Of a stretch of DNA of 64,000 nucleotides, positions 2 to 41,327 are shown one piece after another. A program made the position numbers and the translations under genes. Source of the stretch: Rhodococcus opacus B4 (lineage in GTDB: Bacteria > Actinomycetota > Actinomycetes > Mycobacteriales > Mycobacteriaceae); contig NC_012522.1 in NCBI RefSeq assembly GCF_000010805.1, positions 4,526,001 through 4,590,000 on the forward strand. Reading direction: 5' to 3'. The stretch's first letter is position 1. Each line of letters starts with the position of its first letter. A model generated the notes under the pieces. The model was not told where the DNA came from. It did not search any database and was given only the letters and a program-made list of their open reading frames with translations.

Positions 2-136
2 GTCACCGTGCTCTTCGCGGAACTGCCCCGCGCCAATCGCGACACGGTGCTCCGCACGGATCCGGGCCGCGAGTTCGACAGCAAGGGCCGGTTTTATCCC
101 ACCGTCGACGACGCCGTAGGCGCTGTGCGCCCGTGA
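2..136 (+). CDS. C-terminal end of a SulP-type anion transporter (partial)
   Basis: The frame is open from the window edge and ends in TGA at 134-136, giving 44 residues. The stretch containing VLFAELP, then a charged segment, then FYPTVDDAV near the end resembles the last part of the STAS domain that closes SulP-family sulfate/anion permeases. This is a family-level guess from a short tail; the membrane part lies outside the window. The stop codon is inside the palindrome at 130-175, which also separates this gene from the convergent sulfatase. Confidence 0.5.
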   Translation, partial: VTVLFAELPRANRDTVLRTDPGREFDSKGRFYPTVDDAVGAVRP

Positions 137-175
137 GTGGTTGACGAGTCCCTGCACTCGTCAACCACTCACGGG
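130..175. repeat. GTGAGT palindrome E1 (subtype B)
   Basis: A perfect 20-bp stem (130-149 with 156-175) with a six-base loop CCCTGC. The core arm is GTGAGTGGTTGACGAGT. It lies between two convergent genes and could end transcription from both sides, although no T-tract follows. The upstream gene's TGA is in the left arm. The core matches that of the element at 41288-41327, while six other elements in the window share the outer ends. Confidence 0.85.
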
Positions 176-187
176 TGGCGGAGCCGC

Positions 188-2539
188 CTACTGGTGGCGC
201 AAGGCCGCGGCGAGCGCGTCCTCGGGGTCGATCAGGTGGTTGTGGTCGTCGTCGCCCAGTTCGATGTCGGCCCAGTCGATCGTGCCGGTGAACCGTCCGC
301 GGGCGGTCTTGTAACCCTCGAACACCGGCATGCCGGTGTCGACCCCGACGTCGAGCCCTTCGTCGAACGAGAAGTACAGCGGGTGGGTCCGTTCGACATG
401 ATCCTTGCCCGCCTCGTCGCCGTCGATGTACAGGGTGGCGTCGCCGCCCTTGCCGATGCCGCCGCCGTCGTAGGCGAACTCGACGCGCACCTGGTGCTCG
501 CCCGGGGACAGCGTGGTCGACGACGTGACGGTGGTACGCCGGAGGCCGCAGTAGTTGTAGTGGTACGCCAGCTTGCCACCGACGGTGAGCAATCCCCATC
601 CGCCGGTGCGACCTCCCTGGACGACGATCGCCCCCTCGGCCCCCGAATCCGGGACCTGGATCTGCGCCGTCACCGAGTAGCTGCGGTTCTTGATGTTGAT
701 CGCGACGTTCTCCCCGAGCCTGGTCATGCCGGGGAAGAGCCGGAGCTTGTCGCCCCGGACGAGAGTCGGACGCCCGGCGATCACGGGATTCATGCGTTCG
801 GCGGCGCGGTCGTCGAGCGGGAGGACGTTGTGCCGCACAGCCTCGATCAGGAAGAGCTGCTGCAACTCGGCCAGCTTCTCGGGATTGTCGGCCGCGATGT
901 CGTGGGCCTGCGTCCAGTCCGTGGTGGTGTCGTACAACTCCCACACGTCCAGTGAGAAGTCGGGGGCCTGGGCGACCACGTCCCAGGGAGTGCGGTGCTT
1001 GGTGACGGCGGTCCAGCCGTCGTGGTAGACGCCACGATTGCCCATCAGCTCGAAATACTGCGTGCGGTGCCGCTCGTCGGCGTTCTCGTCGTCGAACGTG
1101 TACGCGAACGACGTACCGTGCATCGGCACCTGGGTGACCCCGTTGACGGTGTGCGGCTGCGCAAGTCCCGCCAGTTCGAGAATGGTCGGGGCGACATCGA
1201 TGACGTGATGCCACTGGTGCCGGATCTCGCCTCGGGCCTCGATTCCGCCGGGCCAGTGCATGATCGTGCCGTTGCGGGTGCCCCCGTAGTGCGAGGCGAC
1301 CTGCTTCGTCCACTGATACGGCGTGCACATGGCGTGCGCCCAGCCGACGGCGTAGTGGTTGTAGGCCTCGGGGCCGCCGATCTTGTCGAGGTGCTCGTTC
1401 CAGAACTCGACGGTCTCGTATTCGCCGCCACCGTTGGACGCGGTGGTGATCATGTACGTGCCCTCGAGGCCGCCTTCCGCGGAGGCGCCGTTGTCGCCGA
1501 TGATGTAGAGGATCAGCGTGTTGTCCAGTTCGCCGATCTCCTCGACGGCGTCGACGACGCGCCCGACGTGGAAGTCCGCGTACTCCAGGAAGGCCGCGTA
1601 CACCTCCATCTGGTGCCGGAGAATCGGTTTCCGCTCCTCCGGGATGTCGTCCCACGCCATGATGCCGTCGGGGCGTGCGGTGAGATCGGAGTCGGGTCCG
1701 ATGACGCCGAGTTGCAGTTGCTTCCGGAACGTTTCGTCGCGGACGGCGTCCCAGCCCCGGTCGAACTTGCCCTGGTACTTGGCGATCCATTCCTTCGGCA
1801 CGTGGTGCGGGGTGTGCGTGGCACCCGGCGCGAAGTAGGTGAAGAACGGCTTGTCGGGGGTCAGCGCCTTCTGCTGCTTGATGTAGTCGATGGCCTTGTC
1901 GGCCAAGTCGGGCATGAGGTGGTAGTCGGGGTTGTCGGGCGGGAGGACGGTGGTCACCCCGTCGACGAGCGCAGGCTGCCACTGGTTGGTCTCGCCGCCG
2001 ATGAATCCGTAGAAGCGTTCGAACCCGCTGAACGCCGGCCAGTGGTCGAATGGTCCCGTCGGCCCCGACTCCCACACCGGGACCTCGTGGCATTTCCCGA
2101 ACTGTGCTGTGTTGTAACCACTCTGGCGGAGAATCTCGGCCAGCGGTGTGCACGAGTTCGGCCGCGTCGACCGGTATCCGGGGGCCGGCGTGGCGGTCTC
2201 GGTGATGTGCCCCATCCCGACCGCGTGATGGTTCCGGCCGGTCAGCATCGCCGCCCGGGTCGGCGAGCACAGCGAGGTGGTGTGGAAGCGGGTGTATTTC
2301 AGTCCGCCGCCCGCGAGTCGTTCGGCGGTGGGGGTGTTCACGGGACCGCCGAAGGCGCTCGAGGCCCCGAACCCGACGTCGTCGAGAAGGATCAGCAGCA
2401 CGTTCGGGGCACCGGCCGGGGGACGTTTCGCGGTGATCGCCGGGAGTTTCTCGGTGGCGTGTCTGGCGTCGAAGTAGATCGGCCCCTGGTACTGCTGATC
2501 GGGGACGGGGAGGATCGACCCGGGAAGCTCCTCAGGCAT
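188..2539 (-). CDS. Arylsulfatase, type I (formylglycine-dependent)
   Basis: This 783-residue protein hydrolyses sulfate esters. The signature CSPTRAAMLTG is present, with the cysteine (about residue 91) that is converted to formylglycine, and the DD pair at 53-54 in LILLDDVGFG is a metal ligand. GDNGA lies further on. The C-terminal third, rich in beta strands, is typical of the large bacterial sulfatases. I chose ATG at 2539 because GAAAGGA sits seven bases upstream; a TTG at 2563 would extend it by eight residues and place this Shine-Dalgarno inside the gene. No signal peptide is visible, so it is probably cytoplasmic. The maturation enzyme FGE is encoded at 10692-11630. Substrate unknown. 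Confidence 0.93.
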   Translation of the reverse strand: MPEELPGSILPVPDQQYQGPIYFDARHATEKLPAITAKRPPAGAPNVLLILLDDVGFGASSAFGGPVNTPTAERLAGGGLKYTRFHTTSLCSPTRAAMLTGRNHHAVGMGHITETATPAPGYRSTRPNSCTPLAEILRQSGYNTAQFGKCHEVPVWESGPTGPFDHWPAFSGFERFYGFIGGETNQWQPALVDGVTTVLPPDNPDYHLMPDLADKAIDYIKQQKALTPDKPFFTYFAPGATHTPHHVPKEWIAKYQGKFDRGWDAVRDETFRKQLQLGVIGPDSDLTARPDGIMAWDDIPEERKPILRHQMEVYAAFLEYADFHVGRVVDAVEEIGELDNTLILYIIGDNGASAEGGLEGTYMITTASNGGGEYETVEFWNEHLDKIGGPEAYNHYAVGWAHAMCTPYQWTKQVASHYGGTRNGTIMHWPGGIEARGEIRHQWHHVIDVAPTILELAGLAQPHTVNGVTQVPMHGTSFAYTFDDENADERHRTQYFELMGNRGVYHDGWTAVTKHRTPWDVVAQAPDFSLDVWELYDTTTDWTQAHDIAADNPEKLAELQQLFLIEAVRHNVLPLDDRAAERMNPVIAGRPTLVRGDKLRLFPGMTRLGENVAINIKNRSYSVTAQIQVPDSGAEGAIVVQGGRTGGWGLLTVGGKLAYHYNYCGLRRTTVTSSTTLSPGEHQVRVEFAYDGGGIGKGGDATLYIDGDEAGKDHVERTHPLYFSFDEGLDVGVDTGMPVFEGYKTARGRFTGTIDWADIELGDDDHNHLIDPEDALAAALRHQ

Positions 2540-2632
2540 GTCGTACGTCCTTTCGCTGGACAAAACAGTCCCCGCTGACGCTAGGACGGTGAGAAGAATT
2601 TCGGCTCACACGCTTCGGGTGAAGCCCCGGCC

Positions 2633-2661
2633 GGTCTCGGCGTGGTCGCATGGACCGAGAC
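2633..2661. promoter_or_regulatory. Inverted repeat in the divergent sulfatase/DUF1254 intergenic region
   Basis: GGTCTCGG (2633-2640) is repeated inverted as CCGAGACC (2654-2661). It ends about 19 bases before the GTG start of the DUF1254 gene. It could be an operator or an mRNA hairpin. No clear promoter hexamers were recognised nearby. Confidence 0.3.
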
Positions 2662-2680
2662 CGCGGGACAGGAGAGAGTC

Positions 2681-4018
2681 GTGGGCATACAACTGCAGGA
2701 ACTCGCCGCCAAGGCGTGGGTGTACGGTTTTCCGCTGGTCTTCGACCTCGACCAGGTGAACCGCTTCGTGGCGGAGGGGATGGGGAGCCTGGAGGCTGCA
2801 CCGTTCAACTGTTTCAGTCACGCCCGTTCCCTGGCCGGGCCGCGCGACACCTTCGTCTCGGTCAACAACGACACGATCTATTCGATCGCCCAGATCGACC
2901 TCGGTCACGGACCGCAGTTGCTGAGTGTGCCCGACGCCGAGGGGGCGTACTACGTCCTGCAATTCGTCGACGCATGGACCGACAATTTCGCGTATGTCGG
3001 CAAACGCGCGACGGGAACGGCCGCCGGTCGTTTTCTGCTGACCGGCCCGGGGTGGTCCGGTGAGGTCCCCGACGGGGCGACGCAGATCGCATTCCCGACC
3101 GCGGTCGGCACCATCGTCGGCCGTTGGGCGTGCGACGGCGAGGACGACCTGGAACGGGTGAAAGGCTTGCAATCGGCTCTGACGCTGGAGCCTTTCGGCG
3201 ACCAGGAACCGGCGGAGGGGCTGCCTGTACCCGACCCGAACGTCCCCGAGGAGCTGCGGTTCTGGGAGAAGCTGCGGGTGTACTCGCAGGCGTACCCGCC
3301 CGCCGCGCAGGACCTCGTCGCGCAACAGGCGTTCGCCCCACTGGGATTGCTCGAGACGGGGCCGTCACCGTACCTCGAGGCGCCGCCGGACCTTGCGTCC
3401 GTGCTCACGGCCGGGGCCGAGTCGGGGCGTCAATCGCTCACCGCCGCACTGAAATCGGGTGCCGGCGCCGCTGTCGTCAACGGCTGGCAGCTGATGTACC
3501 ATGCCTTCGACTACAACGACGACTTCTTCGAGGTCGGCACCGTGAACTCACCCGAGTGGCGGATCGACGACCGTTCGAAGGCGCTGGGCCTGCGGGCCGC
3601 CGCCGCGATGGCGGGGCTGTGGGGGAACCACGGCTACGAGGCGGCGTACGCGCCGATCTACCACGACAGCGACGGCAACGAACTCTCCGGCGAACACACC
3701 TATACCCTCACGTTCGCGCCGACCCCGCCGGTGGACGCGTTCTGGTCGATCACCATGTACGACCTCCCCGAGTTCTTCCTCGCCGGCAATCCCCTCGATC
3801 GCTACTCGATCGGTGACCGCACCCCGGGACTGGTGTTCGACGGCGACGGTTCCCTGACCATCACGCTCGGCGCCACCGCCCCGGCCGATCCGGTCGCGCG
3901 CGCCAACTGGCTGCCGACGCCGCAAGCCGGATTCCGGCCGATGCTCCGGATGTACAGCCCGAAACCGGAGGTGTTCGACGGGACGTTCGCGCTACCGCCG
4001 ATCGTCAAGGTCGGCTGA
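2681..4018 (+). CDS. DUF1254/DUF1214 domain protein
   Basis: A 445-residue protein with the N-terminal DUF1254 pattern (VYGFPLV, then VSVNNDTIYS and AYYVLQFVDAW) and the C-terminal DUF1214 pattern (FWSITMYD, RYSIGDRTPGL, NWLPTP, FRPMLRMYSP). Members are widespread in actinobacteria and proteobacteria; their activity is not established. GTG at 2681 is preceded by GGAGAG; an in-frame GTG at 2642 would add 13 residues. No secretion signal is seen. It is divergent from the sulfatase and might share its regulation. Confidence 0.85.
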   Translation: MGIQLQELAAKAWVYGFPLVFDLDQVNRFVAEGMGSLEAAPFNCFSHARSLAGPRDTFVSVNNDTIYSIAQIDLGHGPQLLSVPDAEGAYYVLQFVDAWTDNFAYVGKRATGTAAGRFLLTGPGWSGEVPDGATQIAFPTAVGTIVGRWACDGEDDLERVKGLQSALTLEPFGDQEPAEGLPVPDPNVPEELRFWEKLRVYSQAYPPAAQDLVAQQAFAPLGLLETGPSPYLEAPPDLASVLTAGAESGRQSLTAALKSGAGAAVVNGWQLMYHAFDYNDDFFEVGTVNSPEWRIDDRSKALGLRAAAAMAGLWGNHGYEAAYAPIYHDSDGNELSGEHTYTLTFAPTPPVDAFWSITMYDLPEFFLAGNPLDRYSIGDRTPGLVFDGDGSLTITLGATAPADPVARANWLPTPQAGFRPMLRMYSPKPEVFDGTFALPPIVKVG

Positions 4019-4068
4019 CCGGGGTGAACCGATGGGCGATCTGATCTGACTTCTCGTCCCGGAGATGA

Positions 4069-4389
4069 TCGGACTGGGTCGGGTTGATCGCCGGTGTGCT
4101 GTTCCTCGTCGTGTCCTTGATCATGCTTACGAGGAAACCGGCACCGGCGGGTGTGATGCCGAAACGGCTGACGACACCCGAGACAGCTACACCGCGGATC
4201 GCGTTCGCGGCAGCGTTGGCCCCCGGCGTGATCAATCCCAGCATCTTCATCGTGCTGTCCGGGATGGCCATAATCTCGAGCTCGAACGACCACGCCTGGG
4301 TGGCGCGGCACAACCGGGCGCTCGGGGTCGCGGTGTTCTTCGGTTTCGGCACACTCTTCGCGCTACGGGGACTGCTCGCGCTCGTGTGA
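4069..4389 (+). pseudogene. Remnant of a GAP-family (Sap/LysE-like) membrane protein
   Basis: The frame opens after TGA at 4066-4068 and reads DWVGLIAGVLFLVVSLIML, then a polar stretch, then FAAALAPGVINPS, then WVARHNRALG and a final hydrophobic segment. These blocks line up in order with the intact GAP-family protein at 9092-9757 (SWVKVVLGVLLLVLAG, FALAAINPKN, WLQANNAAVM), but the first two helices and about 60 residues between the NP block and the last helix are missing. No good start or Shine-Dalgarno is present; TTG at 4084 is the only candidate. I read it as a decayed gene, but a short expressed membrane protein is possible. Confidence 0.5.
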
Positions 4390-4428
4390 ATCAGCGGTAG
4401 TGTTCGGGCCGATTCGAGGGGGGATCGG

Positions 4429-5400: not shown

Positions 5401-5495
5401 GCCGCCGAACGGACTCACCCGGGATCAGATTGGACTCCGCCGGTAAGCTCGACAGCTGGACCAGTACAGATTCATCGACCTGGAGGTAGAAACGC

Positions 5496-7795
<2,300 letters not shown>

Positions 7796-7804
7796 CCTCC
7801 TCCC

Positions 7805-7850
7805 CACGTGAGTGGCAAAGTGTGCTCGCGCACGCTTTGCCACTCACGTG
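7805..7850. repeat. GTGAGT palindrome E2 (subtype A)
   Basis: Twenty-base arms (7805-7824 and 7831-7850) differ at one position, a G-U pair in RNA. The loop is CTCGCG and the core is GTGAGTGGCAAAG. It follows asd and precedes the lipase gene in the same direction. The core closely matches those at 8994-9033 and 23716-23763. A terminator role is likely from position, but there is no T-tract. Confidence 0.85.
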
Positions 7851-7875
7851 TCGGTTGCGGGTGGATACTGGGCCG

Positions 7876-8997
7876 ATGAGAGTGGTCGGGGTCGCGGTGA
7901 CGGCGGTCCTGCTGCTGCTCGCGGGCGCGAGCGAAGTCTCCGCGCAGCCGCCCGGAATCCTGCTGTCGCAGGACGATCTGCCCGTCGCCACGGTTCCCGC
8001 CCAGGCGGGCGACAGCGTCCGGGTGCGGTACTCCACCCTGCGCACCGCGACCGCGACCGGTGAGTCCACGGGATCGATCTTCCTTCCCCGCGGCGACCCG
8101 CCCGCCGGCGGCTGGCCGGTGGTGTCCTACGCCCACGGCACGGTCGGGGTCGCCGACCAGTGCGCACCGTCCGTCGCCGGGTTCAACTACGTCGAACTGC
8201 CCGCGATCGAGCAGTGGCTTGCGGCCGGGTATGCCGTCGCCGCAACGGATTACGCGGGCATCGGCACAGCTGGCGTCAACGCGTACCTGGACGGTCCCGC
8301 GGCCGCCGCGAACGCCGTCGACGTCGTCCTGGCCGCGCACGAGGTGTACGGCGACGTGCTCGCCGACCGGTGGATCGTCGCCGGACTGTCGCAGGGCGGG
8401 CAGGCGACCTACTTCGCCGCCCGCGAGGCCACCGCGCGGGCACCCGCGCTCGACTTTCGCGGCGCCGTGGCCGTGGCCGCGCCGACGCACCTCGAGCGGC
8501 TCTTCCCGGCCGCGGGTCCGGCCATACCGGCTCTGCCGACCAGCGGAATCGTGAACTATGCGTTGCTGACTCTCGCCGGTATCGACGACCAGCGTCCCGA
8601 GGTCGGCATTCGGCGGTACCTGTCGCCGAAGGGGATCGAATTGATGGAACTGGCGAAGGTGACGTGCAGCCGGGAAATCGGCCGGTACCTGCTCGCCCAT
8701 CCCACTTCGGTCGGGGACCTGTTCGTCGCGCCTCTGTGGAACGACCAGTTCCGGGAGCTGTTCCGGGAGATGCAGCAGGTGCCCGTCGACGGATTCGACC
8801 GTCCCCTGCGGGTGGTGCACAGTCTGTCCGACGCGTCGGTGCCGATTCCGCTGACGTGGGCCCAGCTCGCCGAGATGCGGCAGCACGGGGTGAACGTCGA
8901 ATTCCAGCAACTCGTCGGCGAGGACCATCGCGGGTCGCTGATGGCCTCGATGCCGGAGTCCCTCGCCTTCGCGGCGCGCGTGCTGTCCCCCAGGTGA
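7876..8997 (+). CDS. Secreted lipase/esterase, LIP family
   Basis: A 373-residue alpha/beta hydrolase. Residues 1-23 form a Sec signal peptide (MRVVG, a hydrophobic run, ending VSA-Q). The nucleophile is Ser172 in GLSQGG; SYAHGT near residue 86 resembles the oxyanion-hole region; SDASVP and EDHRG probably carry the acid and histidine. The pattern fits the secretory lipase (LIP) family of actinobacteria and fungi. ATG at 7876 was chosen because it begins the signal peptide; an upstream ATG at 7822 lies inside palindrome E2. The final TGA is within palindrome E3. Confidence 0.87.
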   Translation: MRVVGVAVTAVLLLLAGASEVSAQPPGILLSQDDLPVATVPAQAGDSVRVRYSTLRTATATGESTGSIFLPRGDPPAGGWPVVSYAHGTVGVADQCAPSVAGFNYVELPAIEQWLAAGYAVAATDYAGIGTAGVNAYLDGPAAAANAVDVVLAAHEVYGDVLADRWIVAGLSQGGQATYFAAREATARAPALDFRGAVAVAAPTHLERLFPAAGPAIPALPTSGIVNYALLTLAGIDDQRPEVGIRRYLSPKGIELMELAKVTCSREIGRYLLAHPTSVGDLFVAPLWNDQFRELFREMQQVPVDGFDRPLRVVHSLSDASVPIPLTWAQLAEMRQHGVNVEFQQLVGEDHRGSLMASMPESLAFAARVLSPR

Positions 8998-9033
8998 GCG
9001 GCAAAGCGTCCCCGGGCACGCTTTGCCGCTCAC
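8994..9033. repeat. GTGAGT palindrome E3 (subtype A)
   Basis: A perfect 16-bp stem (8994-9009 with 9018-9033), arm GTGAGCGGCAAAGCGT, with an eight-base loop. The lipase stop TGA (8995-8997) is in the left arm. It is closely related to E2 and E6 in the GGCAAAGCG part of the core. Confidence 0.85.
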
Positions 9034-9091
9034 GTGCGGTTCACCCGGCACGTGCGAGGCGGACACGGGCACCCGACCCTACGGTTCGAAC

Positions 9092-10630: not shown

Positions 10631-10691
10631 ACCACCGACTCAACCCCAGCCGGCGCGGCGCGTCTTCATCCCCGTGAGGTGAGAAAGACCG

Positions 10692-11746: not shown

Positions 11747-12496
11747 ATGGATGGACGAATTCCGCGTAGGTCGTTCGTGCGTGGTCTGGCGTTGACGGCC
11801 GGGCTGGGCGCCGTCGGAGCGGGATCGGCGAGCGCCTACCCGTTCGGGATCGATCCGCTGCGGCCGGTCGTCTTCTCCTCACCGCCGCTGCAGCCGTTCC
11901 GGGAACAATTGCCGCCGCTGCCGGTGCTGGGCGGGACCGCCGTCGAGGTGCACGCGAGCAGCACGATGCACGTGTTCCATCCCGACCTCCCCGCCTCGCC
12001 GGCCCTCGGCTCCGGCGGCATGGACTACCTGGGTCCGACCATCGAAGCGCACGTCGGACAGCGGACGACGCTCACCTATCGCAACGACATCACGAGCAAC
12101 CCCCTGGCCGCCGACGTCGACACGCGGATCCACGGCGTGAGCGAGCAGGACCGCACCCAGGTCCCGACGTCGCTGCACCTGCACGGCGGCCGGACGCCAC
12201 CCGAGTTCGACGGACACCCCGAGGACATCATGCGGCCGGGGCAGGGGATGGTGCACGAGTTCCCCAACCGGCAGGACGCCTGCGCGCTCTGGTACCACGA
12301 CCACGCCATGGGCGTCACCCGGCTCAACATCGACGCCGGGCTGGCCGGGATGTACCTGCTGCGCGACGAGTGCGACACCGGTCAGGCCGGCAACCCGCTC
12401 GGGCTGCCCTCGGGCGAGTTCGAGCTGCCGCTGGTATTGCGTGCGCATCCCCTGCAGGGCACGTGTGGCACTGCCACACGTGCCGTAGGCCCGTGA
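11747..12496 (+). pseudogene. Truncated multicopper oxidase (first domain only)
   Basis: The product would be 249 residues with a twin-arginine signal peptide (RIPRRSFVRGLALTAG). Copper motifs of the first cupredoxin domain are present: HLHGG and WYHDHAMG. Full-length enzymes of this bilirubin-oxidase/CotA type run 500-650 residues and carry two more cupredoxin domains with the type 1 copper ligands. Here homology stops after ELPLV, and a hairpin (12458-12484) plus palindrome E4, which supplies the TGA, follow at once. Without domain 3 it cannot be a normal oxidase, so I treat it as a pseudogene. It is divergent from FGE. Confidence 0.75.
12458..12484. repeat. Hairpin at the breakpoint of the truncated oxidase
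   Basis: Thirteen-base arms GGCACGTGTGGCA and TGCCACACGTGCC match perfectly around a single C. It lies inside the final codons of the truncated oxidase, just after recognisable homology ends, and nine bases before palindrome E4. Confidence 0.7.
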
Positions 12497-12532
12497 GTGC
12501 TTATTAACCCCCCGACGTTGATAAGTACTCAC
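12493..12532. repeat. GTGAGT palindrome E4 (subtype C)
   Basis: Arms GTGAGTGCTTATTAAC (12493-12508) and GTTGATAAGTACTCAC (12517-12532) pair at 14 of 16 positions, the others being G-T pairs. The loop is eight bases. The truncated oxidase ends at TGA 12494-12496 in the left arm. The AT-rich core matches that of E5 at 19993-20032. Confidence 0.8.
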
Positions 12533-19992: not shown

Positions 19993-20032
19993 GTGAGTAC
20001 TTCTTAACCGCCGGCGGTTAACAAGTACTCAC
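19993..20032. repeat. GTGAGT palindrome E5 (subtype C)
   Basis: Twenty-base arms (19993-20012 and 20013-20032) abut with no loop and differ at a single position. The core GTGAGTACTTCTTAACCG matches the subtype of E4. It is the only copy not immediately after a long gene's stop, being about 150 bases beyond katA. Confidence 0.85.
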
Positions 20033-21967: not shown

Positions 21968-22020
21968 GGTCGCGCATCCGTGGTCGCGGGGTCCGGCTCC
22001 GGACACGCCCCCACCACGCA

Positions 22021-22058
22021 GAAGAGGCCTCGACCGGCGAACCGGTCGAGGCCTCTTC
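22021..22058 (-). terminator. Terminator of tRNA-Pro
   Basis: A perfect 17-bp stem (22021-22037 with 22042-22058) with a tetraloop, UUCG on the minus-strand transcript. It begins 16 bases after the 3' end of the tRNA. No long T-tract follows, as is usual in these GC-rich genomes. Confidence 0.8.
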
Positions 22059-22074
22059 TCGGTGTCTCACACTG

Positions 22075-22148
<74 letters not shown>

Positions 22149-23241: not shown

Positions 23242-23709
23242 ATGCCAGATTCACTGAAAGCAAGACTGCGCTCCGACATGACGGCCGCCATGAAGGCCAA
23301 GGATTCGCTGCGCACCGCCACGATCCGCATGCTGATGGCCGCCGTGCAGACCGAAGAGGTCTCCGGCAAGGAAGCCCGCGAACTCACCGACGACGAGGTG
23401 CTGAAGGTCCTCGCGAAGGAGTCGAAGAAGCGCGGCGAATCGGCCGAGATCTACACCGAGAACGGTCGCGGCGAGCTGGCAGCGCAGGAGCGGGCCGAGG
23501 CGCAGATCATCGACGAGTACCTCCCGACGCCGCTGACCGACGCCGAACTCGTCGACGTGGTGGACACCGCCATCGCCCAGGTGGCGGAGGAGATCGGTGA
23601 GCGTCCCGGCATGCGTCAGATGGGTCAGGTCATGAAGGCCGCCGGCGCACTCGCCGGCGGCAAGGCGGACGGTTCGCGGCTCTCGCACGCCGTGAAGTCC
23701 CGCCTCTGA
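23242..23709 (+). CDS. GatB/YqeY domain protein
   Basis: A 155-residue protein. LKARLRSDMTAAMKAKDSLR at the start and GMRQMGQVMKAAGALAGGKADGSRLSHAVK at the end are characteristic of the YqeY family, whose C-terminal domain is shared with the GatB subunit of the amidotransferase that corrects Glu-tRNA(Gln). Free-standing YqeY proteins have no proven function. It is divergent from the phosphoesterase gene. Confidence 0.9.
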   Translation: MPDSLKARLRSDMTAAMKAKDSLRTATIRMLMAAVQTEEVSGKEARELTDDEVLKVLAKESKKRGESAEIYTENGRGELAAQERAEAQIIDEYLPTPLTDAELVDVVDTAIAQVAEEIGERPGMRQMGQVMKAAGALAGGKADGSRLSHAVKSRL

Positions 23710-23715: not shown

Positions 23716-23763
23716 GCAGGTGAGTGGGAAAGCGTGCGCCCGCACACTTTCCCACTCACCTGC
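23716..23763. repeat. GTGAGT palindrome E6 (subtype A)
   Basis: Twenty-three-base arms (23716-23738 and 23741-23763) differ at one position and are separated by CC. The core GTGAGTGGGAAAGCGTG is related to E2 and E3. It lies between the convergent yqeY and ponA2 genes, starting seven bases after the yqeY stop and ending four bases before that of ponA2. Confidence 0.85.
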
Positions 23764-23766: not shown

Positions 23767-26130
23767 TTACCGGGGTATGGGCGGCAGCTGGATCGGCGGC
23801 AGGCCGGGCAGCTGGATGGGCGGAACGGGGATCCCCTGAGCCGGGGCCTGCGGGGGAGCGGCCTTCACCGATCCGTCGCTGACGTAGATCGTGATCGTCG
23901 ACCCCGGAATCGCCGAACCGGACGGCGCCGAGCTCGTGACCGTCCCCTTGGCGGCCTGCGACGCGGTGGTGATCGCGTTCACGGTGAATCCGGCGCCCTG
24001 CAGACGCGACGTCGCGGCCGATTGGCTCAGTCCGGTGACGTCCGGGACCTGACCGTTCTGCGAACCCCGCGCGTACTTCTGGTCGATCGGCGGCAGTGTC
24101 GTCGGCCCGAAGTTGCCGGCGACGGGGTTCATCGCGGCGAACCACGTCTGGGCGGGCTCGTTACCGCCGTAGAGATTTCCGTCACCACAGGGCCGCAGCG
24201 GGCCCGAGCAGATCTCACCGGGTGTCGGCGAGTCGCCGAACACGTAGACGGCGGCGGCGAAGTTGTTGGTGAACCCGAGGAAGCCCGAGGACATGTGGGA
24301 CTCGGTGGTTCCGGTCTTGCCTGCCATGGGGAGCGTCCAGCCGACGCTGCCCGCGGCCCCGGCGGACGTGCCGCCGGGCTTGTCGTCCTTGCTCATGGCA
24401 TTGGTGAGCGTGTCCGCGAGCCCGGGTTCGACCACCTGCTCGCAGGCCTGCTGCGTGACCGAGACGGGCTTGCCCTCACGGTCGAAGACCGAATCGATGG
24501 GGGTGGGCGGGCACCACTTGCCGTGTGACGCGAGCGTTGCCGCGACATTCGACAGTTCCAGCGGGTTGACCCAGGTCGGCCCGAGGGTGAACGACCCGAG
24601 GTTCTGATCCTTCTGGAAGTCCGCCATGCTGCGGTCGTCGAATCCGGACGTGCCGGGGTCGGCGTACGAGCGCAGCCCCAGCCGAACCGCCATGTCGACG
24701 GTGGGGGCGACGCCGGTGGCCTGGATGAGCTTGACGAACGCCGTGTTCGGCGACTGTGCGAGCGCGTCCGTCACCGACAGCGACGCCGGGTACTTGCCCG
24801 CGTTCTCGACGCAGTACGTCGATGCCGGGCATCCGCGGGCACCACCGCTACCCATGCCCTTCGCCTCGAACCGTCCGGGGACGTCCAGGACGGCGTTGGT
24901 GCCGAGGCCCTTCTCCATGGCGGCGGCCGTCGTGAAGATCTTGAAGATCGACCCGGCCCCGTGACCGGCCAGCGAGTACGGCTGCGCCTGCACGGTTTCG
25001 TTGGCGTTCGCGTCGAGTCCGTAGGTGCGGCTACTGCCCATCGCGAGGATGCGGTGTGAATCCTGTCCGGGCTGGACCACGTTCATGACGTTCGCGATGC
25101 CGTCGAGTCCGGGGCTGGCCTTCGCACTGAGCGCCGCCTTGGTGGACGCCTGCACCGCGGGGTCGAGCGTCGTCTTGATCAGGTAACCGCCCTTGTCGAT
25201 CTGCTCCCGGCTGATGCCGGCGTTCGCCAGGTACTGCAGGGCGTAGTCGCAGAAGAAGCCGCGGTCGCCGGCGGCGATGCACCCGCGCGGGAGCCGGTTG
25301 GGCTCGGGCAGCACGCCGAGGGGTGTCTCCTTGAGCTCCCGCAGTTCGGCCGCGCGCTCGGGGATGTTCGAGATCATCGTGTCGAGAACCACGTTGCGGC
25401 GTTCGAGGACGCCCTCGGGGTTCGTGTACGGGTTCAGTGCGGAACTGGACTGCACCATGCCCGCGAGCATCGCGGACTGCTGGGTGTTCAGTTCGGACGC
25501 GTCGATGCCGAAGTACGTCTGCGCGGCGTCCTGGATGCCGAACGAGGCGTTGCCGAACGGAACCAGGTTGAGGTAGCGGGTGAGGATCTCGTCCTTGGTG
25601 AGTTCCTTGTCGAGCGTCAACGCCATCCGGATCTCACGGATCTTGCGGGCGGGCGTCGTCTCGATCGCGGCCCGGCGTTCGGCGTCGGTCTTGGCGACGA
25701 CGAGCAGCTGGTAGTTCTTCACGTACTGCTGGTCGAGTGTCGACGCGCCCTGCTGCACCTCACCGCTCGTGGTGTTGGTCAGGAAGGCGCGCATGGTGCC
25801 CTGCCAGTCGACGCCCTTGTGCTCCGGGAATCGTCGGTCCTCGACGGAGACGATGGCGAGTTTCATCTCGTTGGAGATCTTGTCGCTGGGGACTTCGAAG
25901 CGGCGCTGGTCGTACAGCCACGCGATGGGATTGCCCGCGGAGTCGACCATCGTCGAGACCGCGGGAACCGTTCCTTCGACGAGTTCGGCGGAGACGTTGT
26001 CGACGGTGTCAGCCGCCCGGTTGGAGGCGTAACCGAACCCTCCGGCGAGCGGAAACATCACGCCGGCGAGGAGCACTCCTGCCAAGGCGGAGGATCCTGC
26101 GAGCTTCCCCACTGTTTTTGCAATCGACAC
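23767..26130 (-). CDS. ponA2: Bifunctional class A penicillin-binding protein (PonA2-like)
   Basis: A 787-residue peptidoglycan synthase. A membrane anchor occupies residues 10-35. The glycosyltransferase domain follows (AIVSVEDRRFPEHKGVD, QGASTLDQQYVKN, DEILTRYLNLVPFG), then the transpeptidase with SIFK, SPN and KTGTTES motifs, then a PASTA domain (VPDVTGLSQSAATSRLQGAGF) and a proline-rich end. Synteny with whiB4 matches M. tuberculosis ponA2 (Rv3682). Start is GTG at 26130. It acts at the outer face of the membrane in cell-wall growth. Confidence 0.95.
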   Translation of the reverse strand: MSIAKTVGKLAGSSALAGVLLAGVMFPLAGGFGYASNRAADTVDNVSAELVEGTVPAVSTMVDSAGNPIAWLYDQRRFEVPSDKISNEMKLAIVSVEDRRFPEHKGVDWQGTMRAFLTNTTSGEVQQGASTLDQQYVKNYQLLVVAKTDAERRAAIETTPARKIREIRMALTLDKELTKDEILTRYLNLVPFGNASFGIQDAAQTYFGIDASELNTQQSAMLAGMVQSSSALNPYTNPEGVLERRNVVLDTMISNIPERAAELRELKETPLGVLPEPNRLPRGCIAAGDRGFFCDYALQYLANAGISREQIDKGGYLIKTTLDPAVQASTKAALSAKASPGLDGIANVMNVVQPGQDSHRILAMGSSRTYGLDANANETVQAQPYSLAGHGAGSIFKIFTTAAAMEKGLGTNAVLDVPGRFEAKGMGSGGARGCPASTYCVENAGKYPASLSVTDALAQSPNTAFVKLIQATGVAPTVDMAVRLGLRSYADPGTSGFDDRSMADFQKDQNLGSFTLGPTWVNPLELSNVAATLASHGKWCPPTPIDSVFDREGKPVSVTQQACEQVVEPGLADTLTNAMSKDDKPGGTSAGAAGSVGWTLPMAGKTGTTESHMSSGFLGFTNNFAAAVYVFGDSPTPGEICSGPLRPCGDGNLYGGNEPAQTWFAAMNPVAGNFGPTTLPPIDQKYARGSQNGQVPDVTGLSQSAATSRLQGAGFTVNAITTASQAAKGTVTSSAPSGSAIPGSTITIYVSDGSVKAAPPQAPAQGIPVPPIQLPGLPPIQLPPIPR

Positions 26131-30420: not shown

Positions 30421-30465
30421 ACGAATTCGGCCACCCCCTCGCCGTGAGGGGGTGGCCGAATTCGT
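30421..30465. terminator. Bidirectional hairpin between MBL and crp genes
   Basis: A perfect 20-bp stem (30421-30440 with 30446-30465) and five-base loop lie between two convergent stop codons. This is the strongest ordinary terminator-like structure in this part of the window. It is not related to the GTGAGT family. Confidence 0.85.
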
Positions 30466-32511: not shown

Positions 32512-32523
32512 GGGTAGATACGA

Positions 32524-35125: not shown

Positions 35126-35128
35126 CGG

Positions 35129-36067: not shown

Positions 36068-36076
36068 AGGAGCGAG

Positions 36077-36604
36077 TTACCGCGCGTGACGTCCGGTGGA
36101 GGACGATGCGAGATGGGCTTCCGCATCCGAGTACGACGTGGGCAGGACCGTCTTGGCCTGCTTCAGGGAGTCGATGGTCTTCTCGGGGGCACGGAGTTTG
36201 CGAACCCGCAGATAGCCGAGCAGGGCGAGGATCGCCGTCACCACGACCATGATCAGGAAGACGATCAGGAATGCCAGCCAGCGGGCGATCCACACGTCGA
36301 GGAGTTCGGCGAGGAAGAAGAAGAAGAAGAACGAACTGAACAGCAGCACGGTGAACGCGAGGATGAAGAACAGGCTGCCCTGCAGGCCCTTCTTGACCTC
36401 ACCGGTGACCTCGGCCTTCGCGAGCTCGACCTCGGCGCGGACCAGGGTGGACACCTGCGCGGTCGCGTGCTTGACCAGCGTGCCGAGGCTCGCCTCGCCG
36501 GGTGTCTGAGCGTCCACGTCCGTGAGCGGGATCGACGACACCGTGTTCGGCACCCCGTCTCCCGTGTAACGCGGGCTGTCTCCCTTGCCGTGAGTGATGC
36601 TCAC
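36077..36604 (-). CDS. Phage-holin-like (Phage_holin_3_6) membrane protein, Rv3669-like
   Basis: A 175-residue protein. A soluble N-terminus with LVKHATAQVSTLVRAEVELAKAEV is followed by two long membrane segments rich in phenylalanine (LFFILAFTVLLFSSFFFFFF and LAFLIVFLIMVVVTAIL) and a basic tail. This is the actinobacterial 'phage holin family' pattern; the proteins are chromosomal and their function is unknown. It overlaps nhaA by four bases. Confidence 0.85.
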   Translation of the reverse strand: MSITHGKGDSPRYTGDGVPNTVSSIPLTDVDAQTPGEASLGTLVKHATAQVSTLVRAEVELAKAEVTGEVKKGLQGSLFFILAFTVLLFSSFFFFFFLAELLDVWIARWLAFLIVFLIMVVVTAILALLGYLRVRKLRAPEKTIDSLKQAKTVLPTSYSDAEAHLASSSTGRHAR

Positions 36605-37953
36605 TTGTCGACCCCTCCAGGTAGCTCTTGCACGTCCGAGTCATCCTGCCGGGCCGCATGGGCCCGACCGCGTCGCCACAGTAACGCTGATCCGATCAGC
36701 GACGCTGTCAACGATGTCACGAGCACCGCGACCTTAGCTATTTCGGCCGCGCTGCCGTCACCGATTCCCGCAAGCGCGAGATCCGCTACGAGAAGGCTAA
36801 CGGTGAACCCGATCGCACCGAGCACTGAGAGGGCAAACATGTCCCGGAACCCCAGTGCACGCGGTTTCTTCGCGATACCCAGGCGGATCGCGAGCCAGGA
36901 GACACCGAAGATGCCGACGGTCTTGCCGACGAGGAGCCCGGCGATCACGGACTGCGAGACGGGGTTGGTGAACAGCTGCCCGAGGAGCTCGCTGCTGAGG
37001 GCGACCCCGGACGCGAACAGGGCGAACAGCGGGACGCAGACACCCGCCGACAGCGGCTGGATGCGGTGCTCGAGGCGGGAGGCCGGGGATTCGCGTTCGC
37101 CGGGGTCGCGCCGCACCCGGGTGAGGAGGCCGAGGGCGACGCCGGCCAGCGTGGCGTGGATTCCGGCGTCGTGCATGCAGTACCAGGTGAGCAGGGCGAG
37201 CGGAACGTAGAGCAGTGGGGTGGTGATGCGCCGGTGCTGGGCGACGGCGTAGACGACGAGACACCCGGCGGCGCCCAGCAGCCACAGCAGGGCGATCGAG
37301 CTGGTGAACAAGACGGCGATGAGCACGATCGCGAGGAGGTCGTCGACGACGGCCAGGCTGAGCAGGAACACGCGGGCGCTCGCCGGGATGCGGGACCCGG
37401 TCAGCGCCAGCACACCCAGTGCGAACGCGATGTCGGTGGCGACGGGGATGGCCCAGCCGCGGTCCATGCCGGGTGTGCCGGCGCCGATCGTCGCGGCGAT
37501 GATCGCGGGCACCACCACGCCGCCGCAGGCCGCGATGATCGGGAGCAGCGCACGTTTGCGGTCGGCGAGTTCGCCCACCACCAGTTCCCGTTTCAGTTCC
37601 AGGCCGGCGACGAAGAAGAAGACCGCCAGCAGCCCGTCCTGCGCCCACGTGCCGAGCGTCAGGTTCAGGTGGAGCGCCTCCGGGCCGAACTGGTAGTCGC
37701 GCAACGCGAAGTAGGACTCCGCGACGGGGGAGTTCGCCCAGACGAGGGCGATCGCGGCGGCGGCGAGCAGGATCGAACCGCCGACCGTCTCGGTGCGGAG
37801 GTAGCGGGAGAGTTCGGAGCGGAGAGGCTGGGTCACCGGGGGGTGCTCGCTTTCGATGTGGTCCGGGTACGGCAAATGCTCTGCCGACCAGACTTCCCGG
37901 CGCACCGAGGAGAGCTTATCCAATTTGCCAAGCGAAAGACACGAGGTGTTCAA
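36601..37953 (-). CDS. nhaA: Na+/H+ antiporter NhaA
   Basis: A 450-residue antiporter with about 12 membrane segments. PVATDIAFALGVLAL and LAVVDDLLAIVLIA contain the aspartates that bind sodium in E. coli NhaA (Asp133, Asp163 and Asp164). LRTETVGGSILLAAAAIALVWAN is the usual first helix. The start is uncertain: TTG at 37953 gives 450 residues, but GTG at 37836 would begin directly before the conserved part. It is not in this place in M. tuberculosis. The holin-like and ephE genes follow in the same direction. Confidence 0.9.
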   Translation of the reverse strand: MNTSCLSLGKLDKLSSVRREVWSAEHLPYPDHIESEHPPVTQPLRSELSRYLRTETVGGSILLAAAAIALVWANSPVAESYFALRDYQFGPEALHLNLTLGTWAQDGLLAVFFFVAGLELKRELVVGELADRKRALLPIIAACGGVVVPAIIAATIGAGTPGMDRGWAIPVATDIAFALGVLALTGSRIPASARVFLLSLAVVDDLLAIVLIAVLFTSSIALLWLLGAAGCLVVYAVAQHRRITTPLLYVPLALLTWYCMHDAGIHATLAGVALGLLTRVRRDPGERESPASRLEHRIQPLSAGVCVPLFALFASGVALSSELLGQLFTNPVSQSVIAGLLVGKTVGIFGVSWLAIRLGIAKKPRALGFRDMFALSVLGAIGFTVSLLVADLALAGIGDGSAAEIAKVAVLVTSLTASLIGSALLWRRGRAHAARQDDSDVQELPGGVDK

Positions 37954-37965
37954 TTCCTAAGGAAT
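37953..37965. promoter_or_regulatory. Perfect palindrome in the nhaA/MHS intergenic region
   Basis: ATTCCTAAGGAAT is a 6-1-6 palindrome lying between the divergent nhaA and MHS transporter genes, touching the upstream-most possible nhaA start. It is a candidate operator; no matching regulator is identified. Confidence 0.35.
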
Positions 37966-38013
37966 GGACTCTCGTCCCAATAGTTGAAATAGCATCGTGC
38001 AGGAGTAAGTCGA

Positions 38014-39399
38014 GTGAGCAGTGCCGTCGATACGTCGAAACCAGATCCGGACGGCGGGGCCACCGTCGCCGGCGTACCCAGAAGCCGGATCGTCGTCGCG
38101 AGCATGGTGGGAACGTCCATCGAGTTCTACGACTTCTACATCTATGCGACCGCCGCGGTGTCGGTGTTCCCGCATCTGTTCTTCCCCAAGGGAAATGGCA
38201 CCACCGCCCTGCTGGCGTCCCTCGCCACATTCGGTCTCGCGTTCGTCGCCCGGCCGCTCGGGTCGATCCTGTTCGGCCACTTCGGCGACCGCATCGGACG
38301 CAAGACGACGCTCGTGGGCTCCCTCCTCACCATGGGCATCGCCACATTCGTGATCGGTCTGCTGCCGACCTACCACCAGATCGGCATCGTCGCGCCCGCG
38401 CTGCTGGCGCTGATGCGCTTCTGCCAGGGCCTCGGTCTGGGTGGGGAGTGGAGCGGCGCGGCATTGCTCGCGACCGAGACCGCCCAGAAGGGCAAGCGGG
38501 CGTGGGCTGCCATGTGGCCGCAGCTGGGCGCGCCGATCGGCTTCTTCCTCGCGAACGGTCTGTTCCTGATCATCACCCTGTTCCTGGACCACGACAACGG
38601 CAGCCCCGACCTGGACGGTGCGTTCCTCACCTGGGGCTGGCGGATCCCGTTCCTGCTCAGCGCGATCATGGTGATGATCGGTCTGTACGTGCGGCTCAAG
38701 CTCGAGGAGACACCCGTGTTCGCCCGCGCCGTGGAGCGGGGCGAGAAGGTGAAGACCCCGCTGGCCGAGGTGTTCAAGACCAGCTGGCGTCAGCTGATCA
38801 TCGGCACGTTCGTCATGCTCGCCACGTACACGCTGTTCTACATCATGACCACCTGGGTGCTCAGCTACGGCACCGGCAAGACCCCGGCCCAGGGCGGCAC
38901 CGGAGCCGGCTTCCAGTACGCCGACTTCCTGGTCCTCCAGCTGATCGCGGTCCTGTTCTTCGCCGGCGCCGTTCCCGTCTCGGGGTGGCTGGCCGACCGC
39001 TACGGTCGCCGCATCACGCTGCTCACGATCACCGGGTTCATCATGCTGTTCGGCCTCACGTTCGGCGTCATGCTGAACCAGGACGGCATGGGCAACGCCC
39101 GGATGCTCGTCTTCCTGGCCGTCGGAATGTTGTTGATGGGCATGACCTTCGGGCCGATGAGCGCCGTTCTGCCCGAGCTGTTCCCGACCAACGTGCGCTA
39201 CACGGGGTCGGGGATCGCCTACAACACCGCCAGCATCCTCGGCGCCGCCGTCGCCCCGTTCATCGCGACCTGGCTCGCCACCACGTACGGCGTCGGCTGG
39301 GTGGGCATCTACCTGCTGATCGCCGCCGCGCTCACGTTCGTCGCCCTGCTCGTCATGCGCGAGACGCGCGACCAGTCCCTCGACGACGTAGGCGCGTAG
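38014..39399 (+). CDS. MFS transporter, metabolite:H+ symporter (MHS) family
   Basis: A 461-residue transporter with 12 membrane segments. GTSIEFYDFYIYATAA in the first helix, GHFGDRIGRKTTL in loop 2-3 and LQLIAVLFFAGAVPVSGWLADRYGRR in the second half are classic MHS motifs (as in ShiA, KgtP and ProP). Substrates of the family are organic acids and osmolytes; this one is unknown. GTG at 38014 follows CAGGAG. It is inserted, with nhaA and the cyclase, between genes that are adjacent in M. tuberculosis. Confidence 0.92.
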   Translation: MSSAVDTSKPDPDGGATVAGVPRSRIVVASMVGTSIEFYDFYIYATAAVSVFPHLFFPKGNGTTALLASLATFGLAFVARPLGSILFGHFGDRIGRKTTLVGSLLTMGIATFVIGLLPTYHQIGIVAPALLALMRFCQGLGLGGEWSGAALLATETAQKGKRAWAAMWPQLGAPIGFFLANGLFLIITLFLDHDNGSPDLDGAFLTWGWRIPFLLSAIMVMIGLYVRLKLEETPVFARAVERGEKVKTPLAEVFKTSWRQLIIGTFVMLATYTLFYIMTTWVLSYGTGKTPAQGGTGAGFQYADFLVLQLIAVLFFAGAVPVSGWLADRYGRRITLLTITGFIMLFGLTFGVMLNQDGMGNARMLVFLAVGMLLMGMTFGPMSAVLPELFPTNVRYTGSGIAYNTASILGAAVAPFIATWLATTYGVGWVGIYLLIAAALTFVALLVMRETRDQSLDDVGA

Positions 39400-39403
39400 C
39401 GCC

Positions 39404-39445
39404 CGTGCGCCTTTCTGGTTGTTCCAACTGCCAGAAAGGCGCACG
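39404..39445. repeat. Palindrome E7 (GTGCGCC variant)
   Basis: Fifteen-base perfect arms (39404-39418 and 39431-39445), core GTGCGCCTTTCTGG, with a 12-base loop. It begins five bases after the transporter's stop. The ends differ from GTGAGT, but the flanks are like those of other copies: CGTAGGCGC upstream and GCGCAGCGGCCTA downstream (compare 115-132 and 175-191). Confidence 0.65.
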
Positions 39446-39473
39446 AGCCGCGCAGCGGCCTATAGTTCTTTGC

Positions 39474-41291
39474 ATGGCGAAAGCCGTGCTGTTGTCCAGG
39501 ACGGCCCGGATCCGGCTGCCGGCGCAGGATCTGTGGTCGTTCCTCGCCGATACCGATCGGCTCAATCGCAATATCGACCTGTCGCCGGTGCGTTTCGCCC
39601 CGACGCTGGATCGTCGCCGCAAGGGACACTATTCGGCGGAGACACGTTCGTACGGGCGGCGGGTGCGGTACGAGGAGTTCCCGTTCGAATGGGTCGAGGG
39701 CCGTTTCTATCAGGTTCTTCGCCGCTTCTCCCGCGGCCCGCTCGAGGAGGTCTCCACGGGTGTCCGGCTCCGCCCGGCCGCCGACGGGACCGAGGTCGAG
39801 GTGTTCGCCCGGATCGTCCCCCGCACCTGGTTCGGCGCCATCGCGGCGCGAACGCTGCTGGCGCGCACGGGCATACGGAAGACGGTGGCGCTCGCGCACG
39901 CGCTGGAGCGACATGTCCGCGACCCTCGGGCGCACGCAGTCCCCGCCCCGCCGTCGCCGGAACAACTCGACGCCGACCGGCTGGAATTCCGGACGGCGCA
40001 GCTGTCTCGATCGCACGACGCTCCGAACCTCATCGGGCGCTTGGAGTCCCACTTGCGGACCGGGTCCGATCTGGAGGTGACGGGCATGCGCCCGTTCGAG
40101 TTGGCGGACCGCTGGGGTGCCGACCGGATGCAGCTGCTGTACGTCTTCCTCCACGCCGCGGACTGCGGACTGCTGGACCTGAGCTGGAGCGTGCTGTGCC
40201 CGGTCTGCCGGACCGCCCGCGAGGACGCCGGCCGGATTCGGCAGTTGCCGAGCCGCGTCCACTGCGACACCTGCGACATCGCGTTCGACACGGACCTCGC
40301 GCGGTCGGTGGAGATCCGCTTCGACGTCAACCCGGCCGTCCGCCGGGCGGAGCGGGCCCGGTACTGCATCGGTGGTCCGGCGAATTCACCGTCGGCGGTG
40401 GCGCAGTTGCGGCTCGAGCCGGGGGAGTGGCGCTGCGAGCGGCTCGAACTCGACCCGGGATGGCTGCGGCTCCGGTGCTATCAGGTGGGTACCCCGGTGG
40501 CCTGCGAGGTCGGTCCTGCGGGCGGAACGCTGCGGGTCGACTGCGGGCCCGGTGATCTCCGGGTGCGTGATGCGCCCGGCACCGACGGTGCTTGCCTGCT
40601 GGAGGTCGCGAACCGACTTCCCGGCGAGGCGCTGGTGGTGGTGGAGCGGGAGCGGTGGAAGGACGCCGCGGCGACCGGCGCGCTCGTGACGTCGCTCGAC
40701 GGTTTCCGGGACCTGTTCCCGGACCAGGGGGTGGCGCCGGGCGACGAGATCGGGATCGCGAACCTGGCGGTGCTGTTCACGGATCTGAGCGGCTCGACCG
40801 CCCTGTACGAGCGTATCGGCGACGTCCGGGCGTTCGCGTTCGTGCAGAGCCATTTCCGTTACCTGCGTGACGCGGTGATCCGCGATAACGGCGGAATCGT
40901 CAAGCAGATGGGCGACGCGGTCATGGCGACGTTCGCCGACGCGAGGGAGGCCTGGTCGGCGGCGGCGTCGATGCAGTCCGGCTGGGACGACTTCCGTCGC
41001 GAGTATCTCGGTGCGGACGACTCGGTGTCGCTGAAAGTCGGGCTGCACCAGGGGCCTGCGGTGATGATCGACAACGACGGCCGGGTCGACTATTTCGGGG
41101 CGACGGTCAACCTGGCGGCGCGGGTGCAGGGCTGTGCCGGGGGCGGCGACATCGTCCTGTCCCGGGCCGTGCACGACGATCCGGGGGTGGCGCGGCTGCT
41201 CGCGACATCCGGCTACCGGTGCGAAATGTTCACCACCGAGCTGAAGGGAATCGGCGAGGAGCAGACGCTGTGGCGGCTTCACCGCCCGTGA
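39474..41291 (+). CDS. Class III adenylate/guanylate cyclase with SRPBCC and zinc-ribbon-like domains
   Basis: A 605-residue cytosolic protein. Residues 1-150 look like an SRPBCC ligand-binding domain; a middle region has two cysteine pairs, 242/245 (CPVC) and 264/267 (CDTC), typical of DUF5939-type cyclase regulatory regions. The catalytic domain (about 430-600) has metal aspartates Asp437 (VLFTDLSGST) and Asp481 (KQMGDAVM), with substrate lysine Lys477 and the transition-state residues Asn546 and Arg550 in NLAAR. It probably makes cAMP for CRP. Palindrome E8 supplies its TGA. Confidence 0.88.
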   Translation: MAKAVLLSRTARIRLPAQDLWSFLADTDRLNRNIDLSPVRFAPTLDRRRKGHYSAETRSYGRRVRYEEFPFEWVEGRFYQVLRRFSRGPLEEVSTGVRLRPAADGTEVEVFARIVPRTWFGAIAARTLLARTGIRKTVALAHALERHVRDPRAHAVPAPPSPEQLDADRLEFRTAQLSRSHDAPNLIGRLESHLRTGSDLEVTGMRPFELADRWGADRMQLLYVFLHAADCGLLDLSWSVLCPVCRTAREDAGRIRQLPSRVHCDTCDIAFDTDLARSVEIRFDVNPAVRRAERARYCIGGPANSPSAVAQLRLEPGEWRCERLELDPGWLRLRCYQVGTPVACEVGPAGGTLRVDCGPGDLRVRDAPGTDGACLLEVANRLPGEALVVVERERWKDAAATGALVTSLDGFRDLFPDQGVAPGDEIGIANLAVLFTDLSGSTALYERIGDVRAFAFVQSHFRYLRDAVIRDNGGIVKQMGDAVMATFADAREAWSAAASMQSGWDDFRREYLGADDSVSLKVGLHQGPAVMIDNDGRVDYFGATVNLAARVQGCAGGGDIVLSRAVHDDPGVARLLATSGYRCEMFTTELKGIGEEQTLWRLHRP

Positions 41292-41327
41292 GTGGGTGAG
41301 GAGTCCAGAGACTCGTCACCCACTCAC
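41288..41327. repeat. GTGAGT palindrome E8 (subtype B)
   Basis: Eighteen-base arms (41288-41305 and 41310-41327) with one mismatch and the loop CAGA; core GTGAGTGGGTGAGGAGT. The cyclase stop (41289-41291) is in the left arm, and the convergent acs gene ends 15 bases beyond the right arm. The core matches E1. Confidence 0.85.

Follow-up and report, generated by a model that had tools for sequence, protein, structure and literature searches.

The region of Rhodococcus opacus B4 considered here raises the question of whether the hairpins that lie between its genes are ordinary transcript ends or members of a dispersed family and, in the second case, how such a family occupies its sites. The window, that is, the whole stretch of 64,000 nucleotides that was analysed, is located on contig C5 of the 8.83-Mb genome (G000); related genomes are referred to by their handles. 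A preliminary description had listed eight hairpins in the window, with cores of three subtypes (A, B and C) and one variant. All eight inverted repeats were located where they had been placed, and the membership of the three subtypes was as described (Table 1). In addition, the core, measured from the outer GTG to the outer CAC, was exactly 40 bp long in the eight copies, a regularity that had not been remarked before. It had also been said that no copy lies to the right of position 41,330, which is true within the window; the next intact copy in a stretch of 800 kb was found about 166 kb further on, and a damaged type C copy at about 158 kb.

Table 1. Members of the palindrome family in the window, with the genes next to them and the state of the orthologous sites.
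Type	Start of inverted repeat	Coordinates	Structure	Neighbouring genes and stop codons	Orthologous sites
B composite	130	117..190	hairpin 117-132 (starts TAG), 40-bp core 133-172, hairpin 173-190 (ends CTA)	CTA at the 190 end is the stop codon of sulfatase-like gene 188-2539 (minus strand)	
A core	7805	7808..7847	whole palindrome 7805-7850	follows the stop codon of a semialdehyde-dehydrogenase-like gene by 12 bp	A cores in G222 and G259
A core	8994	8994..9033	ends GTGAGC/GCTCAC	TGA in the first bases is the stop of gene 7882-8997	IS inside the palindrome in G222
C core	12493	12493..12532	imperfect arms	TGA of the core is the stop of called gene 11777-12496	C in G222 (44-bp version) and G195 (40-bp version)
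C core	19993	19993..20032		downstream of catalase gene	deletion remnant in G259
A core	23716	23720..23759	whole palindrome 23716-23763	between convergent genes 23278-23709 (YqeY-like) and 23767-26112	
D composite	39404	39389..39462	hairpin with TAG edge 39389-39404, 40-bp core 39405-39444, hairpin 39445-39462		D in G259, G195, G284; B in G222, G245, G023, G266, G272
B core	41288	41288..41345	core 41288-41327	TGA of the core is the stop of gene 39474-41291; right flank reaches the CTA stop of a minus-strand gene at 41343	B in 8 of 8 genomes scored there

A hairpin scan of the window placed seven of the eight copies within the nine top-scoring inverted repeats, the copy at 12493 being the weakest listed (score 10); in three order-3 Markov controls, 3, 4 and 3 hairpins reached a score of at least 10, the best of them 13. 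Two near-perfect hairpins that do not belong to the family are also present, at 30421-30465 and 22020-22059, one of them matching the best family copy in strength, and they are possible ordinary terminators. Rfam 15, searched at gathering score over the window, gave no match over any 40-bp element; its only matches were Ms1 (49814-50118, minus strand), 6C RNA (51196-51271, plus strand) and a tRNA (22075-22148, minus strand).

Copies in the complete genome were counted with exact patterns, taking the reversed pattern as control. GTGAGT-N{20,40}-ACTCAC occurred 148 times (control, 5) and GTGAGT-N28-ACTCAC 143 times (control, 0). The copy at 39404, previously regarded as a variant, was indeed distinct from A, B and C, but it is not a mere variant: it represents an abundant fourth type, D, whose pattern was found 61 times (control, 0). 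The family totals about 200 copies in this genome; among the matches listed, the D copies (50 of the 61) and the GTGAGT copies were all on contig C5. Length is nearly invariant, 40 bp being the only one enriched. Spans from GTGAG(T/C) to (A/G)CTCAC of this length numbered 39 in 800 kb of R. opacus B4 (any other length, at most two), 29 in G222 (other lengths, at most three) and 12 in G259, with three of 41 bp. Rare cores measure 39, 41 or 44 bp, as in a type C copy of G222 (44 bp) and a type D copy of G023 at site 759041 (39 bp). A genome search of the kind that the preliminary description had named as a possible refutation, here with exact patterns, gave copies far above the control, and gene 3' ends were enriched, so that the claim of a family was not refuted. 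Its suggestion of a dispersed REP-like element also found good support, in some 200 extragenic copies at 3' ends, identical copies at unlinked loci and insertions of other mobile DNA. The observation is real and larger than first described.

Beyond this strain, the 40-bp pattern was found in 64 of the 301 genomes of the taxonomic family, 22 of which, spread over four genera, carry at least 16 copies; between genomes the cores differ, and the ends and the length are constant. Among 150 genomes drawn from the order there were 14 with matches; in this sample, six genomes of one genus of another family hold 30 to 192 copies, many with the centres GTTCTAAC or GTTAGAAC. The same ends and length, with other cores, are also present in Pseudonocardiaceae. 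The matching stretches with a name, at least 120, came mostly from Amycolatopsis, Pseudonocardia, Kibdelosporangium and Rhodococcus, and included two unrelated MAGs whose matches were only 24/40 palindromic. When 246 genomes were sampled across the phylum, with few from the order, the GTGAGTG form matched R. opacus B4 alone. Phage and plasmid origins were addressed with the end pattern and with five typed queries, covering some classes only, and both were rejected: 41 stretches of viral contigs fit the end pattern but only 16-30 of their 40 positions were palindromic, near chance, and two typed 40-mers had no match in the phage collection; three typed 40-mers gave a single plasmid match, of 85%, in a record of Rhodococcus opacus PD630. 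A possible further class is an odd-centred repeated palindrome, GATGTGACATTCGT...ACGAATGTCACATC, several copies of which are flanked by gccc/gggc (offsets 131483 and 669975 in the 800 kb of R. opacus B4; 258789 and 638974 in G259).

The comparison of collinear 800-kb stretches of R. opacus B4, G222 and G259, which hold 51, 50 and 35 elements, showed that positions are conserved. Where the flanks of an R. opacus B4 element had orthologues, an element was present at the site in 36 of 43 cases in G222 and in 25 of 39 in G259, and the 40-bp register was preserved. Deletion remnants were often visible at the sites lost in G259, where the A and C sites were intact in 12 of 25 cases versus 11 of 11 for D (P=0.0026). 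Whenever both genomes held a scored element, A was always opposite A and C opposite C. The D sites behaved differently according to the genome: the 11 filled in G259 were all D, whereas of the 10 filled in G222 eight were B and two D. Likewise, nine of the 10 G259 D sites that are filled in G222 carried B.

Eight relatives were then added, giving a matrix of 14 sites, orthologues of R. opacus B4 B and D sites, in 11 genomes; site 389158 was excluded, as the relatives have no orthologous element there. At these sites 118 elements scored above the cut, 88 of type B and 30 of type D, and some cells fell below it (among them G230 at 54233, G023 at 54921, and G259 and G272 at 760855). The difference between types is all-or-none and in register. 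With the arms scored separately, both belonged to one type in 118 of 118 elements, with no chimeric or intermediate form, membership leaning towards the types because these were defined from the same genomes. The lowest own-type score was 29/36 for B and 26 for D, and the highest score against the other type was 22. Flank identities were obtained by gapped alignment because the small hairpins beside the cores differ in length. In the 191 pairs of unlike type the core identity was 0.441 and that of the flanks 0.917 and 0.876; in the 295 pairs of like type the values were 0.906 for the core and 0.908 and 0.897 for the flanks. At one site, 304610, and its orthologues (L222 and relatives), the left flank is common, but downstream of the B/D element there are two unrelated haplotypes, much as at a recombination breakpoint.

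Sister genomes differ as well. Those about 4% apart were unlike at 6 of 12 sites (G195/G222), 5 of 11 (G195/G023) and 4 of 12 (G284/G266); other sister pairs differed at 1 of 11 (G023/G222), 1 of 6 (G245/G272) and 0 of 6 (G230/G145). A tree with one weakly supported node required at least 22 changes, distributed over 10 of the 14 sites. G230 and G145, which are the most distant, carried B wherever scored, a statement that applies to these sites only, as they were picked among the B and D sites of R. opacus B4. Across the genus, large genomes rich in D tend to be poor in B and the reverse, with D/B counts of 61/8 in R. opacus B4, 60/0 in G259, 49/10 in G195, 42/20 in G284, 20/17 in G266, 18/26 in G245, 16/31 in G230, 13/28 in G023, 11/34 in G222 and 6/23 in G272. 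The main result is that between species the sites are retained and their B and D cores substitute for one another in register, something that is invisible from one genome.

What is copied can be seen in an imperfect D 40-mer that is identical, in either orientation, at seven of the 50 loci listed out of 61 in R. opacus B4. Flank identity at these seven loci drops to 0.2-0.5 within a few bases; the flanks agree only in letters common to the variants of the small hairpins and are unrelated beyond. Identical 40-mers amid unrelated flanks indicate that the 40-bp unit itself has been copied. The 16 nt adjoining switched cores also differed more (P=0.010), so that copied tracts may include the small hairpins; the window from 22 to 60 nt differed more as well (P=0.015, a value inflated by length changes).

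The explanation that we favour, and hold with moderate confidence, is that a REP-like population of palindromes copies its 40-bp core into existing sites, replacing the occupant. The elements would be non-coding palindromes built on a 40-bp unit and resident at old sites just behind stop codons, and over the divergence studied new copies would mostly not found new sites. The core would be copied from site to site, ousting the resident one without displacing the outer flanks or, in many cases, the small hairpins beside it. B and D would be rivals for one set of sites, and A and C would each keep their own. Copies elsewhere in the same genome would be the source of the replacement, and one enzyme may measure the 40 bp and act on the folded hairpin. 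The sites may persist because a hairpin that looks the same from either side brings a benefit, or does no harm, at a 3' end. Against this explanation stand the letters common to cores of one site, the behaviour of site 304610 (both described below), the greater divergence of the nucleotides around switched cores, the rare cores of 39, 41 or 44 bp, and the outcome of the searches for an enzyme, which yielded no candidate.

The main rival is allelic exchange, which we consider improbable although it may account for part of the data: old B and D alleles of each site would have been shuffled among related species by homologous recombination, in tracts worn to under about 100 bp, with balancing selection perhaps keeping the alleles. 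This explanation would be consistent with the letters that cores of one site have in common. Same-site D cores of R. opacus B4, G259 and G195 had common letters beyond chance (P 0.008, 0.009 and 0.001), and so, often, did same-site B cores, so that some of the mosaic may go back to old alleles redistributed by recombination. Orthologous A cores gave a site signal in every comparison, and C cores a less clear one. At site 304610, moreover, the whole right haplotype differs along with the core and is tied to D in four genomes. However, twelve focal D events were examined against B sisters, two of them at this site, and when the other ten were pooled, the informative flank positions beyond 16 bp were mostly sister-like (54 versus 18 donor-like, with few positions at some sites). 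The D cores newly placed in G284 were no closer to the same-site D cores of R. opacus B4 than to others (n=3, P=1), and the seven identical 40-mers at unlinked loci require copying within the genome.

A second alternative, in our opinion quite unlikely, is that the elements are bidirectional transcription terminators or transcript-end hairpins, alike only through selection for one shape. Their surroundings speak in its favour. Convergent gaps, as given by a simple purpose-made gene caller, hold 22 of the 47 scored R. opacus B4 elements versus 13.8% of the intergenic bases (P=5e-8), and divergent gaps 4 of 47 versus 28.7% (P=7e-4); four further elements lay in no scored gap. Pooled over three genomes, which counts orthologous sites more than once both here and for the stop codons, 127 elements (126 in the pooled position test) included 55 in convergent and 14 in divergent gaps. 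Stop codons are close by: gene ends near B and D cores used TAG in 49 of 69 cases (overall, 22.4%), 46 of these 5-16 bp before the core, and for many genes at A cores (11/51) and C cores (19/50) the stop is the TGA inside GTGAG. The predicted folds are also strong. As to the anatomy, small hairpins accompany the cores in 164 of 184 flanks for B, 66 of 82 for D, 27 of 84 for C and none of 82 for A, with 10-18% in shuffled sequences. These small hairpins have mostly TNC loops on one strand (GNA on the other) and usually end 1-2 nt from the core; the D composite is predicted to fold into three hairpins as single-stranded DNA and to prefer one long hairpin as RNA. Nevertheless, at least 5 T among the 12 nt that follow the hairpin, taken as a T-tract, occurred in only 6% of 51 family copies; the value was 26% for the 39 strong intergenic hairpins outside the family and 11% for the intergenic background, and those outside hairpins span 33-64 bp, unlike the fixed 40 bp of the family. 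Selection for shape would leave unexplained, in addition, the identity of imperfect 40-mers at seven loci and the absence of B/D intermediates. For the recruitment as terminators that the preliminary description had suggested, location is the one feature of the sequence that would speak, and termination could still be the function of sites that are filled by copying.

It is very unlikely, in turn, that the elements are binding sites of dimeric DNA-binding proteins, each arm being a half-site and the switch from B to D following a change of the protein. The preliminary description had stated that the arms covary. Each copy is palindromic, and across copies the statement holds weakly for A and B (paired fraction at variable columns, observed/shuffled, 0.72/0.68, z 2.8, and 0.69/0.66, z 2.5), but not for C (0.67/0.63, z 1.5) or D (0.59/0.62, z -1.5). 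Across copies of one type the two arms vary almost independently which, together with the fixed spacing and the class-wise decay of sites in G259, is what half-sites could produce. On the other hand, a single genome contains both B and D, and the switch takes place at individual sites. Scant covariation can also come from the copying of imperfect masters, and the identical asymmetric copies account for arm independence without any protein.

We regard as highly improbable that the sites once carried B and D in tandem, with loss of one type in some species and of the other type in others. A pairs in tandem, with a spacing of about 48 bp, do exist and deletions are common in G259, but the nearest B-D pair in the three 800-kb lists is at least about 690 bp apart and none was found at the scored sites. 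That the family consists of classical REPs or REPINs whose mover is a RAYT (Y1/HUH) transposase is already largely refuted. The copy number, the location, the use of TAG as stop and the GTAG preference of B and D edges (G before TAG in 31 of 46 cases versus 189 of 427 elsewhere, P=0.003) agree with REPs, but PF01797 is absent from most copy-rich genomes tested. This domain, which marks RAYT, was present in 5 of the 16 genomes tested and absent from 9 of the 12 copy-rich ones, such as G259 (60 D copies), G042 (196) and G362 (192); G110 had four PF01797 matches and none of the searched elements. The distribution over the 16 genomes speaks strongly against RAYT as the mover, and the 3.4-kb locus of the best PF01797 match in R. 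opacus B4 held no element of the family.

The elements are themselves targets of other mobile DNA. In the 800 kb of G222, four type C palindromes (offsets 76419, 166522, 350736 and 630928) are interrupted at their precise centre by an IS of about 1.8 kb; the one transposase checked among the four is of the DDE type. An A copy of G222 contains an IS with an rve domain. In R. opacus B4, a 4.2-kb insertion that carries a group II intron reverse transcriptase (L245:11188-12996) splits a type C palindrome. An autonomous element bounded by half-sites was rejected: there were 59 solitary half-site matches in 2.4 Mb, and the strong pairs were C copies split by insertions.

Regarding known systems, REP and REPIN sequences of Proteobacteria and others are described as short extragenic palindromes of many copies, located in convergent or co-directional gaps near stop codons, with several classes per genome and a TAG that is supplied by the element (PMC3733652, PMC3116915, PMC8049555). 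The present family resembles them, as depicted there (PMC3733652), in being a palindrome in the 20-40 bp range, in high copy number, extragenic, at gene 3' ends and with TAG as stop. It differs in that the 40-bp core carries no unpaired GTAG or CGTC tag, its ends being paired GTG/CAC and symmetric; only the small hairpins beside B and D have a weak GTAG edge, and A has no such hairpins. Near-fixed length, RAYT missing from most copy-rich genomes and in-register core replacement are further differences. The nearest phenomenon that we found is the 'orthoswitch' of pseudomonads, in which a different REP class comes to stand beside the RAYT gene and the earlier copies are reported to persist while decaying (PMC3686654). 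As there, one class yields to another within a lineage; unlike what that account relates, here the resident core is exchanged at the same site. Palindromes of actinobacterial (rhodococcal) telomeres are reported to carry a GCTXCGC motif (PMC7276702), and the small hairpins beside B and D often contain GCTTCGC or GCTCCGC, the three-hairpin fold of the D composite being a further likeness; the 40-bp elements, however, are internal and not at replicon ends, and the resemblance is one of motif and predicted fold. The literature search, with subscription journals mostly outside its reach, found no paper on a 40-bp palindrome family, PMC4988695 dealing only with CRISPR. We therefore file the family as REP-like and not as a member of the REPs, with in-register copy-and-replace as the new part.

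A more specific form of the copying explanation can be proposed tentatively, and we think it is rather doubtful: in some Mycobacteriales, 40-bp palindromes would home independently of RAYT, a putative enzyme with a 40-bp ruler swapping cores at docking sites behind genes, so that rival types would invade each other's sites genome-wide and the sites would outlast the divergence of species. Clustering of the neighbour genes over at least 120 named loci, together with the PF01797 search, gave no candidate for this enzyme; in the two largest clusters, 4 of 14 and 5 of 9 proteins lay no more than 200 nt from an element.

The cases of REP-like spread and type change that have been described rely largely on RAYT transposases; in this family, the site is retained and its occupant is exchanged as a unit of near-fixed length. 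Sister genomes about 4% apart are unlike at as many as half of the sites scored, so that one should be able to observe the process in close strains and in laboratory lines. The family also provides a large and countable set of 3'-end elements without T-tracts for the study of termination and transcript stability in high-G+C actinobacteria.
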